8,834 bases of DNA from Burkholderiaceae bacterium (GTDB lineage: Bacteria; Pseudomonadota; Gammaproteobacteria; Burkholderiales; Burkholderiaceae), in contig JAGOCV010000162.1 of assembly GCA_017998575.1 (NCBI GenBank), positions 1-8,834 of the forward strand. Direction: 5' to 3'. A model generated the notes under the pieces. It did not search any database, was not told where the DNA came from, and worked only from the letters and a program-made list of their open reading frames with translations. Below are positions 2,586 through 5,013 of this stretch, piece by piece; the first letter of the stretch is position 1, and every line of letters starts with the position of its first letter. Position numbers and translations under genes: made by a program.

Positions 2586-4085
2586 TCACTCCAGCCCTTC
2601 TTCGACAAGTTCCGACGCCCGCAGCAGCGCACGCGCCTTGGCTTCGGTTTCCTTCCATTCCAGCTCGGGCACCGAATCGGCCACCACGCCGGCCGCGGCC
2701 TGCACGTAGAGCGTCTGGTCCTTGATGACGCCGGTGCGGATGGCGATGGCCACGTCCATGTCGCCGGCGAAGCTCAGATAACCGCAGGCGCCGCCGTAGA
2801 GGCCGCGCTTGGTGGGTTCGAGCTGATCGATGAGTTCCATGGCATGCACCTTGGGCGCGCCGGTGAGCGTGCCAGCCGGAAAGGTGGCGCGCAGCACGTC
2901 GAGGCTGGTCATGCCGTCTTGCAGGATGCCCTCGACGTTGCTCACGATGTGCATCACGTGGCTGTAGCGCTCCACCGCGAAAGCCTCGGTTACCTTGACG
3001 GAGCCGGTCTTGGCGATGCGGCCGATGTCGTTGCGCGCGAGGTCGATCAGCATCACGTGCTCGGCGCGCTCCTTCGGATCGCTCACCAATTCCAGCTCGG
3101 CGGCCTTGTCGGCCTCGGGCGTGGCCTGGCGCGGACGCGTGCCCGCGAGCGGGCGGATGGTGATCTTCTGGCCTTCGGGCACCTGCTCCTGCCGCACCAG
3201 GATCTCGGGCGACGCGCCCACCACATGGAAGTCGCCGAAGTGGTAGTAGTACATGTAGGGCGACGGATTGAGCGAACGCAGCGCGCGGTAGAGCGACAGC
3301 GGGCTCTCGGTGTAGCGCTTGCGGATGCGCTGGCCCACCTGCACCTGCATGAAGTCGCCGGCGGCGATCAGTTCCTTGGCGCGCTCGACGGCCGCGATGT
3401 AGTCGGCCTTGGCGAAATCGCGCTCGGCCGGATAGGCCTGGCTGGCCTTGAGTTGCGGCGCGCTCACGGAGTACTTGAGCTTGTCCTTGAGGTCGCGCAG
3501 GCGCTTCTTGGCATTGGAGAACGCTTCGGGCTGCGCCGGGTCGGCATAGACGATGAGGTAGAGCTTGCCCGAGAGGTTGTCGATGACAGCCAGCTCTTCG
3601 CACTGCAGCAGCAGGATGTCGGGGCAGCCCAGCGTGTCCGGAGGGCACGTGGCTTCGAGCTTCTTCTCGATGTAGCGCACGGCGTCGTAGCCGAAGTAGC
3701 CGGCCAGCCCGCCGCAAAAGCGCGGCAGGCCGGGCCGCAGCGCCACCTTGAAGCGCTTCTGGTATTGGGCGATGAAATCGAGCGGGTTGCCCTGCGCGGT
3801 CTCGATCACCTGGCCGTCGCGGACGACCTCGGTGCGGGCCGCATCGCCGAAGCCGCTGGCGCGCAACAGCGTGCGCGCCGGCAGTCCGATGAAGCTGTAG
3901 CGGCCGAAGCGCTCGCCGCCCACCACGGATTCGAGCAGGAAGCTGTGGCGTCCGCCGTCCTGCGAATGGGCGAGCTTGAGGTAGAGCGAGAGCGGGGTTT
4001 CGAGGTCGGCGAAGGCCTCGGCGATGAGGGGTATGCGGTTGTAGCCGGCGTCGCGCAGGCTCTTGAATTCCAGTTCGGTGATCAC
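2586..4085 (-). CDS. trpE: Anthranilate synthase component I (GTG start)
   Basis: TrpE converts chorismate and ammonia to anthranilate, the committed and normally feedback-inhibited step. It has 499 residues, the usual length. The N-terminal domain carries the tryptophan-binding LLES (50-53) followed by GERFGRYSF; the second allosteric element NPSPYMYYY is at 273-281. The chorismate-binding domain shows GASPEILVR (290-298), IRPLAGTRPR (310-319), ERAEHVMLIDLARND (339-353), FPAGTLTGAPK (402-412) and GGACGYLSFAGDMDVA (431-446). All active-site and allosteric motifs look intact, so feedback inhibition by tryptophan is expected. The start is GTG at 4085: a TGA closes the frame at about 4131, no ATG lies between, and GGAGG stands 9 nt before the GTG. 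An attenuator-like leader precedes it. It is the first enzyme gene of the operon. Confidence 0.98.
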   Translation of the reverse strand: MITELEFKSLRDAGYNRIPLIAEAFADLETPLSLYLKLAHSQDGGRHSFLLESVVGGERFGRYSFIGLPARTLLRASGFGDAARTEVVRDGQVIETAQGNPLDFIAQYQKRFKVALRPGLPRFCGGLAGYFGYDAVRYIEKKLEATCPPDTLGCPDILLLQCEELAVIDNLSGKLYLIVYADPAQPEAFSNAKKRLRDLKDKLKYSVSAPQLKASQAYPAERDFAKADYIAAVERAKELIAAGDFMQVQVGQRIRKRYTESPLSLYRALRSLNPSPYMYYYHFGDFHVVGASPEILVRQEQVPEGQKITIRPLAGTRPRQATPEADKAAELELVSDPKERAEHVMLIDLARNDIGRIAKTGSVKVTEAFAVERYSHVMHIVSNVEGILQDGMTSLDVLRATFPAGTLTGAPKVHAMELIDQLEPTKRGLYGGACGYLSFAGDMDVAIAIRTGVIKDQTLYVQAAAGVVADSVPELEWKETEAKARALLRASELVEEGLE

Positions 4086-4090
4086 GGGGC

Positions 4091-4146
4091 GGGCCCTCCG
4101 GAGCCCGGGCCGCGAGGGGCGGCCAGTTCATTCCATCGATGGCCGC
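4091..4146 (-). promoter_or_regulatory. trpE translation-start region with self-complementary segments around the ribosome site
   Basis: The trpE Shine-Dalgarno GGAGG (4099-4095) lies inside the palindrome CUCCGGAG and is flanked by GGGC (4106-4103) and GCCC (4094-4091). Upstream, CCCUC (4118-4114) is complementary to GAGGG (4098-4094), so it could act as an anti-Shine-Dalgarno. A GGCCGC block (4124-4119) can pair either with GCGGCC upstream (4146-4141) or with GCGGCC downstream (4113-4108). In the second case CCCUC becomes a hairpin loop. These pairings are seen directly. That they control trpE translation is inference, and such complementarity is common by chance in very GC-rich DNA. Confidence 0.35.
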
Positions 4147-4167
4147 GCGCGGGGGCGGGCCGGGGGT

Positions 4168-4231
4168 GCACGGGCAGGCCGGCAGGCGCCGGCGGCCGTG
4201 CGTTCAGATGCGCACGAACTCAGGCTTGCGC
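4168..4231 (-). promoter_or_regulatory. Candidate tryptophan attenuator: mutually exclusive RNA hairpins
   Basis: Four segments follow the Trp codons in the leader RNA. Segment 1, GCGCA (4231-4227), begins at the last base of the second Trp codon and can pair with segment 2, UGCGC (4214-4210). Segment 2, as CGUGCG (4216-4211), pairs perfectly with segment 3, CGCACG (4202-4197), across an 8-nt loop. Segment 3, as GCACGG (4201-4196), pairs perfectly with segment 4, CCGUGC (4173-4168). The last hairpin encloses an inner stem GCCGGC/GCCGGC (4193-4188 with 4183-4178, loop GCCU). This is the 1:2, 2:3, 3:4 logic of classical attenuation: a ribosome stalled at the Trp codons would free segment 2 and favour 2:3 over 3:4. 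Oddities are the absent U-tract after segment 4, and that segment 3 starts only two bases after the leader stop, so a terminating ribosome would briefly cover it too. Confidence 0.6.
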
Positions 4232-4287
4232 CAGGGCCAGGCTCCCCGGTCGCTGCGACCTGTGATGACAGTGCGGTGAACGAACAT
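4204..4287 (-). CDS. trpL: trp operon leader peptide (27 aa, Trp-Pro-Trp)
   Basis: This short ORF ahead of trpE encodes 27 residues, beginning MFVHRT and ending RGAWPWRKPEFVRI. Tryptophans are at positions 17 and 19, in the codon run TGG-CCC-TGG (4239-4231). Two Trp codons within three, in a short peptide just before trpE, is the mark of a ribosome-mediated attenuator. The peptide itself is expected to have no enzyme role; translation speed senses charged tRNA-Trp. The stop is 118 nt before the trpE GTG. No Shine-Dalgarno precedes the ATG (the upstream bases are GCCCGCC), while an extended -10 box ends 8 nt before it, so the message may start at or next to the AUG. Sinorhizobium meliloti trpL is a known leaderless parallel. 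Alternating hairpins follow. The same reading frame extends upstream to an ATG near 4428, but that would lie before the promoter. Confidence 0.75.
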   Translation of the reverse strand: MFVHRTVITGRSDRGAWPWRKPEFVRI

Positions 4288-4303
4288 GGCGGGCAGTGTA
4301 GCA
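4287..4303 (-). promoter_or_regulatory. Candidate trp operon promoter with extended -10
   Basis: On the minus strand TGC (4303-4301) directly precedes TACACT (4300-4295), giving an extended -10 with four of six consensus bases in the hexamer. The best -35 candidate is the poor TTCCCG (4324-4319) with an 18-nt spacer, which fits an extended -10 promoter that leans less on the -35. The expected transcription start, 7-8 nt downstream of the hexamer, falls at about 4288-4287, that is, on the trpL ATG. No repressor operator was recognised. Confidence 0.5.
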
Positions 4304-4331
4304 AATGGCCGCGACGGGCGGGAAACCCCGA

Positions 4332-4360
4332 TGGGCACGAGCGTGAGGCACCGTGAGAAT
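4332..4360 (+). promoter_or_regulatory. Weak candidate promoter for the chalcone-isomerase-like gene
   Basis: TGGGCA (4332-4337) and GAGAAT (4355-4360) are separated by 17 nt, and each matches four of six sigma-70 consensus bases. They stand 41 nt before the ATG at 4402, in the divergent gap shared with the trp promoter. In GC-rich DNA such partial matches are frequent, so this is only the best candidate seen. The rest of the gap (4361-4401) holds a GAGGA ribosome site and nothing else recognisable. Confidence 0.2.
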
Positions 4361-4401
4361 CGCGCGCCACCCATCCCGCCCCTCATCGAGGACACCCACC
4401 C

Positions 4402-5013
4402 ATGCCGCCCGCCGCCCTGCTCCGCCATGCCTGTGCCACGCTCGCCGTTGCGCTGCTGTCCATGTCACCCGTCCAGGCACAGGCCCCGGCCGCTCCCGTG
4501 GTGGTGGACGGCGTGAAGTTCGAGCCGACGGCCACCGTGCAGGGCACGCCGCTCGCGCTCAACGGTGCGGGTACGCGCTACAAGGCTGTGTTCAAGGTGT
4601 ACGCGATGGCGTTGTACGTGCCCAAGGCGGCCGGCACGGTCGACGAGATAGCCGCGCAACCTGGTCCCAAGCGCATCGTCGTCACCATGCTGCGCGACAT
4701 CGATGCCAACGAACTCGGTCGCCTGTTCACGCGCGGCGTGGAAGACAACACGCCGCGCCAGGAGCTTTCGCGGCTGATCCCCGGGCTGCTGCGCATGGGC
4801 GAGATGTTCGCGCAGCAGAAACGCCTGAACGCGGGCGACACCTTCAGCGTCGACTGGATACCGGGCACAGGCGCGGTGGTGACCGTGCGCGGCCGCGTGC
4901 AGGGCGAGCCTTTCCGCGAGCCCGAGTTCTTCAATGCCCTGCTGCGCATCTGGCTGGGGCCGCAGCCGGCCGACTGGCGACTGAAGGAACTGCTGCTGGG
5001 CAAGCCCGCCTGA
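4402..5013 (+). CDS. Secreted chalcone-isomerase-like domain protein
   Basis: The 203-residue protein starts with a clear Sec signal peptide: a short basic N-region (Arg8, His9), the hydrophobic run ACATLAVALLSM, and a likely AQA cleavage site after residue 28. The mature part resembles the bacterial chalcone isomerase-like family: DGVKFEPTATVQGTPLALNG (36-55), then YKAVFKVYAMALYVP (60-74), the mixed region with DANELGRLFTRGVEDN (101-116), a polar GDTFSVDWIPGTG strand pair (145-157), and the closing FFNALLRIWLG (176-186). Bacterial members are periplasmic proteins of unknown role; there is no reason to assume flavonoid chemistry, and the fold is shared with fatty-acid-binding relatives. A GAGGA ribosome site about 10 nt upstream supports this ATG. 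It diverges from trpL and converges on gph with a 14-nt gap, so it is probably transcribed alone. Confidence 0.85.
   Translation: MPPAALLRHACATLAVALLSMSPVQAQAPAAPVVVDGVKFEPTATVQGTPLALNGAGTRYKAVFKVYAMALYVPKAAGTVDEIAAQPGPKRIVVTMLRDIDANELGRLFTRGVEDNTPRQELSRLIPGLLRMGEMFAQQKRLNAGDTFSVDWIPGTGAVVTVRGRVQGEPFREPEFFNALLRIWLGPQPADWRLKELLLGKPA

Follow-up and report, generated by a model that had tools for sequence, protein, structure and literature searches.

The question raised by this locus is how a trpE-trpG-trpD-trpC operon is coupled to the tryptophan supply, and whether the short Trp-codon ORF preceding trpE acts, as the original prediction held, as a ribosome-mediated transcription attenuator. The E. 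coli trp operon is the textbook example of transcription attenuation, with a Trp-codon leader ORF and a hairpin located after its stop codon. In the window (the whole 8,834-nt stretch of DNA that was analysed), the operon order was established with Pfam and NCBIfam models and all four genes lie on the minus strand: trpE (2586–4085, GTG start), trpG (2010–2582), trpD (283–1314) and trpC (2–277), the last truncated at the window end. A chalcone isomerase-like gene is oriented in the opposite direction and starts at 4402. The leader ORF, trpL, occupies positions 4287–4204 of the minus strand and consists of 27 codons and a stop codon (4206–4204), encoding the peptide MFVHRTVITGRSDRGAWPWRKPEFVRI. 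It carries the TGG-CCC-TGG sequence at 4239–4231, i.e., two Trp codons at 4239–4237 and 4233–4231, the first of which is codon 17, and the trpE GTG codon at 4085 lies 118 nt downstream of the trpL stop; the ORF, the Trp codons and the gap had been described earlier and their coordinates were borne out. The leader peptide matched no NCBIfam model, and the Rfam release 15 covariance models gave zero matches in the whole window up to E = 5.

The conservation of the leader was analysed in two sets of related loci. Among 80 named trpE loci, many titled as Comamonadaceae genera, an AW[PLA]WR leader was present in 59, in addition to the window. In the family-wide set, 200 genomes were searched, TrpE was detected in 192 and the upstream regions of 130 were examined; these were taken nearly in the order of TrpE score, so that weaker matches are under-represented, and at least one row (G049) was omitted. 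Of the 130 same-family regions, 124 contained an in-frame AW-x-WR leader, the exceptions being L149, L155, L187, L217, L220 and L228. In L155 a Cys codon replaces the second Trp codon (AWPCR) and the rest of the core is intact. The L187, L217, L220 and L228 loci still possess a CTACACT-type -10 sequence close upstream of trpE, which would fit an excised leader.

The pooled and deduplicated set comprised 176 leaders, the window included. Their consensus was MF[IV]H....TG..DRGAWPWR, in which the Ala and Trp codons were fixed by the selection of family leaders with AW[PLAVS]W[RK], and it was followed by a C-terminal tail variable in length and sequence. The first ATG after the -10 sequence was in frame with the Trp motif, with no in-frame stop codon, in 162 of 163 cases (the exception was L032), a test that used the nucleotide motif and the -10 sequence alone. 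The occurrence of the leader in 124 of 130 regions together with this maintenance of the frame goes beyond chance, and the comparison thus indicates that the leader ORF is real. Since a conserved in-frame leader with two Trp codons lies directly 5' of trpE-trpG-trpD-trpC, the operon is very probably controlled by charged tRNA-Trp via ribosome stalling. Both the expected conservation of the ORF and its Trp codons in close relatives and the tRNA-Trp control proposed in the original prediction therefore gained support.

A -10-like hexamer was located 6–10 nt upstream of the leader ATG in 168 of 174 family leaders. The hexamer read TACACT, TAAACT or TAGACT in 165 of the 174 leaders, mostly TACACT with TTTGC before it. 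In the window, the corresponding extended -10 element TTTGCTACACT occupies 4305–4295 on the minus strand, 7 nt 5' of the ATG, with the hexamer at 4300–4295; no sigma-70-like match was found in a scan of positions 3700–4900. Because the spacing of 6–10 nt is about the usual distance from a -10 hexamer to the transcript start, transcription would begin at the AUG itself and the trpL mRNA is probably leaderless. A transcription start downstream of 4204, which would run against the earlier proposal, is unlikely given the conserved -10 at 4300–4295.

The codon choice in the leader core revealed constraint at the RNA level. Arg was encoded by CGG in 161 of 165 CGN codons, with CGG constituting 11% of the trpE Arg codons, and Gly by GGA in 158 of 172 cases against a trpE background of 2.7%. 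Pro was encoded by CCC or CCT in all 159 cases and never by CCG, the codon used for 51% of Pro in trpE, and ACA and GGT were also favoured against the codon bias. Such a choice fits a hairpin across the Trp codons, H0 (4249–4231, minus strand), with the arms 4249–4244 (CCGGGG) and 4236–4231 (CCCTGG). Its pairing was near-invariant in the comparison, with 1041 of 1056 cells paired relative to 32–67% for slid partners, and the stretch was more stable than its shuffles. The variation in H0 was mostly one-sided, which denotes conservation with no strong covariation. In the full-length equilibrium fold of the window, H0 was absent and the block paired elsewhere. The A of GGA and the upstream ACAGGT are not accounted for by H0, and neither an RNA nor a peptide role was found for the ACA-GGT codons (4263–4258 in the window) in the family leaders.

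A second conserved pairing connects the first codons of the leader with the RNA preceding trpE. The 5' strand of this helix, P1, is GTTCGTTC (4285–4278, minus strand), comprising the G of the start codon and codons 2–4, and its 3' strand is the box GAATGAAC (4133–4126, minus strand), the two being paired with one G-U. The box, whose reverse complement matches the leader start GTTCATTC, was detected in 38 of 176 intergenic regions, with 0.3 expected. Similar excesses were observed for GAATGAA (48 of 176 regions, 0.5 expected) and for GGAGGCTC in the intergenic RNA (36 of 176, 0.4 expected), and 58 of 62 GAATGA hits were located 44–82 nt upstream of trpE.

The pairing was evaluated by exchanging intergenic partners between leaders. 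A duplex-energy test gave -13.5 for own partners and a mean of -12.6 for swapped ones (permutation sd 0.15), with a mean rank of 0.42 (chance 0.5); the effect was smaller in this version because GC-rich stretches swamp the test, and an exact-complement test was used next. The longest exact complement of leader nt 0–14 in the intergenic region was 6.11 for own and 5.25 for swapped partners (z 10.8), and the signal was still present for nt 6–20 (z 6.0) and nt 12–26 (z 6.4). The swap tests ignore relatedness within the family. Downstream leader windows were used as the control; those starting at nt 18–48 gave z from -1.3 to 2.4. When the tests were split by location, leader nt 0–15 gave z 10.3 at -95 to -35, 5.2 at -35 to 0 and 2.6 at -230 to -95, with z from -2.2 to 3.2 for control windows from nt 18 onwards. 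Of the 137 ATGTTC leaders, 72 had a GAAC anchor and gave z 7.4 in an anchored test, and 65 lacked such an anchor. Both sides of P1 were changed together in L207 (11 bp), L042 (8 bp), L172, L174, L059 and L061. A DNA-binding protein recognising GTTCATTC/GAATGAAC was also considered and is disfavoured, as several loci changed both sides and still pair.

Full-length folds pointed in the same direction. Leader nt 3–10 paired with the region from -110 to -30 with a mean probability of 0.43, exceeding 0.5 in 78 of 174 leaders, compared with 0.05 and 4 of 174 for shuffled intergenic RNA. The mean values for further leader segments with the same region were 0.12 (nt 13–20), 0.09 (nt 21–28) and 0.10 (nt 29–36). 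For the window, the predicted pairing of P1 was 0.98, and leader nt 21–28 (0.60) and nt 29–36 (0.85) were also predicted to pair with this stretch. P1 is thus predicted for the window and for slightly fewer than half of the family leaders, and its complementarity is documented for part of the family. In a subclade (e.g., L200, L208 and L225), leader nt 12–27, of the GCAAGCAAACC type, pair nearer the leader stop and not with the box (z 7.6). Overall, the conserved elements support a tie between the leader start and the RNA before the trpE ribosome-binding site.

The RNA following the box is structured. Directly after it lies the hairpin HB (4124–4108, minus strand), with GGCCGC/GCGGCC arms at 4124–4119 and 4113–4108 that appear in the folds and gave z 5.9 in the swap test. 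It is followed by SDH (4107–4090, minus strand; arms 4107–4101 and 4096–4090), a hairpin predicted in the folds and containing the trpE Shine-Dalgarno sequence GGAGG (4099–4095). In the window fold, a single unpaired base lies between P1 and HB, and HB directly abuts the Shine-Dalgarno hairpin; the same adjacency was found in L035 and L082. The swap test of the Shine-Dalgarno hairpin arms gave z 3.0 only, and in the family the hairpin occurred in two matched forms, GAGC...GCTC and GGGCC...GGCCC. In 52 of 176 cases, a stem of 4 bp or more carried a Shine-Dalgarno-like core in its loop. When the leader was omitted from the fold, the box was largely unpaired (about 0.6–0.8) and its flanks were paired (71 sequences). 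In the family of the window, P1 lies beside the Shine-Dalgarno sequence and not on it, and the box looks, from the folds and by analogy, like a landing (standby) site adjoining a partly sequestered Shine-Dalgarno sequence. By eye, the Trp-codon block GGGGAGCCTGG suggested a direct helix with the trpE Shine-Dalgarno sequence GGAGGCTC; this was rejected, as the block paired with the last 25 nt with a median of about 0 and a mean of 0.04; the CTC after the Shine-Dalgarno sequence is explained by the local hairpin, whose arms change together.

An order-wide sample extended the analysis beyond the family. It included 120 genomes, with TrpE detected in 112, three of them in the family of the window, and 87 of the 109 TrpE-positive non-family genomes were examined. 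Leaders were picked by a Trp-motif rule, framed after inspection of the peptides but blind to complementarity, and distances were counted up to where the TrpE match begins, the start codon being unverified. The rule picked leaders in 50 of 87 regions, in 26 of 41 families, with WRWR or WRWWR as frequent endings. In these 50 leaders, nt 3–27 tested for pairing with the 40 nt directly upstream of trpE gave 6.52 for own partners (z 12.4); the value was z 8.2 with one genome per family and z 10.6 without L267. In L267, the leader start and the trpE-proximal RNA pair over more than 20 bp of CACAGAG-like simple sequence. At least six contiguous pairs were present in 28 of 50 leaders, with 7.6 expected, from 19 families, and a Shine-Dalgarno-like purine run was found in the partner or its flanks in 20 of those 28. 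The signal was z 10.9 for the 36 leaders with the stop less than 80 nt away and z 3.4 for the 14 located farther, and along the leader it decreased from z 11.6 at nt 3–21 to 0.5 at nt 33–51. A further signal was detected between nt 27–45 and the region from -120 to -35 (z 4.0). In family f5 the paired sequences change together (ACTCCAA/TTGGAGT, ACTCCG/CGGAGT and TTACTCC/GGAGTAA).

Taken on its comparative footing, a ribosome-mediated, Trp-responsive translational attenuator upstream of trpE is the reading we lean towards, with slightly better than even confidence. The trpL mRNA would begin at its own AUG. With charged tRNA-Trp plentiful, ribosomes would clear the short ORF and leave the first codons of the leader free to pair as P1 with the GAAUGAAC box, stacking on HB and SDH and placing the structured trpE ribosome-binding site out of reach. 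With Trp scarce, one ribosome would stall at the Trp codons and a second would wait on the start codon; this queued ribosome would block P1, and the single-stranded box could then serve as the standby site from which trpE is translated. The queued ribosome is needed in this model because one stalled at codon 17 leaves nt 1–14 uncovered. With the usual sizes of ribosome footprints, a second, initiating ribosome fits behind the stalled one. The leaderless start, the stalling and queueing of ribosomes, the use of the box as a standby site and the consequence for trpE are proposed steps. The prediction of P1 in less than half of the leaders, the ATGTTC leaders without a GAAC anchor, the pairing elsewhere in a subclade, the further leader segments predicted to pair with the box stretch in the window, the low swap score of the Shine-Dalgarno hairpin arms and the lack of H0 in the window fold speak against the P1 model. 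More tentatively, and with somewhat less than even confidence, the trp operons of a whole betaproteobacterial order may have in common a translational attenuator whose antisense element is formed by the first codons of the leader. In many families these codons would pair with the ribosome-binding site of trpE; in the Comamonadaceae-like family their partner would be a standby site that stacks on a sequestered Shine-Dalgarno sequence. Trp shortage would then be reported by ribosomes queued on a leaderless mRNA instead of by one stalled ribosome.

The same helix could serve another purpose. P1 covers the last base of the leader AUG as well as the codons that follow, so it might merely shut off leader translation on the complete transcript, sparing Trp, or protect the 5' end, with trpE controlled otherwise. 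Das et al. 1983 reportedly proposed that distal leader RNA in E. coli pairs with the trpL ribosome-binding site. We consider this explanation rather unlikely, as the partner of the leader start in other families is often the trpE Shine-Dalgarno sequence itself. It is also unlikely, to a slightly greater degree, that control is exerted by Rho-dependent termination in the C-rich RNA between the stop and trpE, set by the position of the ribosome on the leader. Other systems have leader peptides that act via Rho, and C exceeded G after the stop codon (0.40–0.42 vs 0.31 in the first 40 nt); however, this excess is modest, and such termination would explain neither P1 nor the pairing between the leader start and the trpE ribosome-binding site in other families. 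Rho-dependent control and the shut-off of leader translation may also coexist.

The original prediction itself, in which 1:2, 2:3 and 3:4 stems alternate and a terminator attenuates transcription, fared worse. Its three stem pairs (GCGCA/TGCGC, CGTGCG/CGCACG and GCACGG/CCGTGC) are exact Watson-Crick complements at the positions assigned to them, and the window folds allow the alternation, since 2:3 formed in the RNA left free when a ribosome occupies the second Trp codon, and 3:4 formed in the RNA past the trpL stop. The 3:4 stem corresponds to the hairpin HA directly after the stop codon (4201–4168, minus strand; present in the fold), and in the family it was kept, with z 7.5 for own vs swapped partners. 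The other two stems were not conserved in the 176 leaders: 1:2 gave z -1.4, and 2:3, in which the end of the ORF pairs with RNA located past the stop, gave z -1.8, with z -3.1 for the last 15 nt of the ORF. They look like chance GC-rich complementarities, a caveat that had accompanied the prediction. No U tract follows HA and no terminator-like site was found within 3700–4900 of the window. Hidden U-tract terminators in the family were considered and found unconvincing, as terminator-like sites in the 176 leaders numbered 45, compared with 33 in mononucleotide shuffles, and their positions were scattered. The leaders of related families do include ones with a downstream hairpin and U tract: L062, L064, L066, L068, L074, L242 and L257 each have a Trp-rich leader and then a hairpin and U tract before trpE, looking like classical attenuators. 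For the locus studied here, the classical trp transcription attenuator is not supported and appears very improbable. Least credible is an action of the conserved peptide itself, as an arrest peptide or in trans, which would agree with the MF[IV]H....TG..DRGAWPWR conservation and with the trans action of the S. meliloti peptide peTrpL (PMC7298713), but much of the conservation lies at the RNA level (CGG, GGA, no CCG) and the C-terminal tail differs between leaders in both length and sequence.

Transcription attenuation is classically illustrated by the trp operon, yet the conserved signals in many families of one order point to control at the translation start. The translational attenuator proposed here shares with the E. 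coli system a short Trp-codon ORF before trpE and a hairpin after its stop, and it differs in having no U-tract terminator, no conserved antiterminator and probably a leaderless mRNA, and in the conserved helix between the leader start and the RNA close to trpE. Its design would be simple, requiring sensor codons and a leader start complementary to the landing zone of the next gene. The compact non-family leaders, with the stop about 42–52 nt before the TrpE match in 20 of 50, suggest regulation with no room for a terminator.

Canestrari et al. 2020 are said to have described leaderless polycysteine short ORFs of mycobacteria acting by translation attenuation of downstream genes. A review describes leaderless Cys short ORFs of mycobacteria that regulate downstream translation (PMC9031893). 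The common features would be a short ORF with sensor codons, a leaderless start, which is probable here, and attenuated downstream translation, which is proposed here. The present leaders would sense Trp, belong to another phylum and have their own first codons as the pairing strand. In E. coli tisB, the standby site is blocked by a separate antisense RNA, whereas here the leader start of the mRNA itself would block it. A standby (landing) site beside a sequestered Shine-Dalgarno sequence has been reported for tisB (PMC7708055). In S. meliloti, the trpL/rnTrpL leader has a Trp-codon uORF before trpE(G) and its RNA begins at the trpL ATG, as is probable here, and a transcription terminator is described for it (PMC7298713), whereas none was found in our case. 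Actinobacteria are described as having translational T-boxes, as well as cys leader peptides that lack obvious terminators (PMC1262725). For short leader-gene distances, the authors of PMC4833913 stated in a reply to a reviewer that all attenuation variants seem impossible, the distances there being shorter than here; they refer to Lopatovskaya et al. 2010 on a mechanism that overlaps with the ribosome-binding site. The terms "attenuation", "trp" and "leader peptide" do not occur in the main text of a survey of start sites in one Burkholderia (PMC4603805). Among the open-access matches listed, none concerned betaproteobacterial trp leaders with a start-to-box helix. Amino-acid-sensing leader ORFs are well known, and the start-to-box helix in a trp leader is what would be new; Vitreschak et al. 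2004 and Merino et al. 2008 may bear on its priority.

The leader pattern also provides a sequence rule for finding unannotated leaders. A scan with it gave a match in 25 of 40 genomes, and of 14 matches examined, three precede trpE (L112, L119 and L134), one precedes trpG (L135) and ten are chance-like. L135, from genome G213 of family f14, is a GAWPWR leader, MFALPASPRIIVFHPVPAVGAWPWRPAP, located before a trpG gene named by eye, and trpE of the same genome has a separate Trp-rich leader, L301. Judging from L135, Trp leaders may control further Trp genes.
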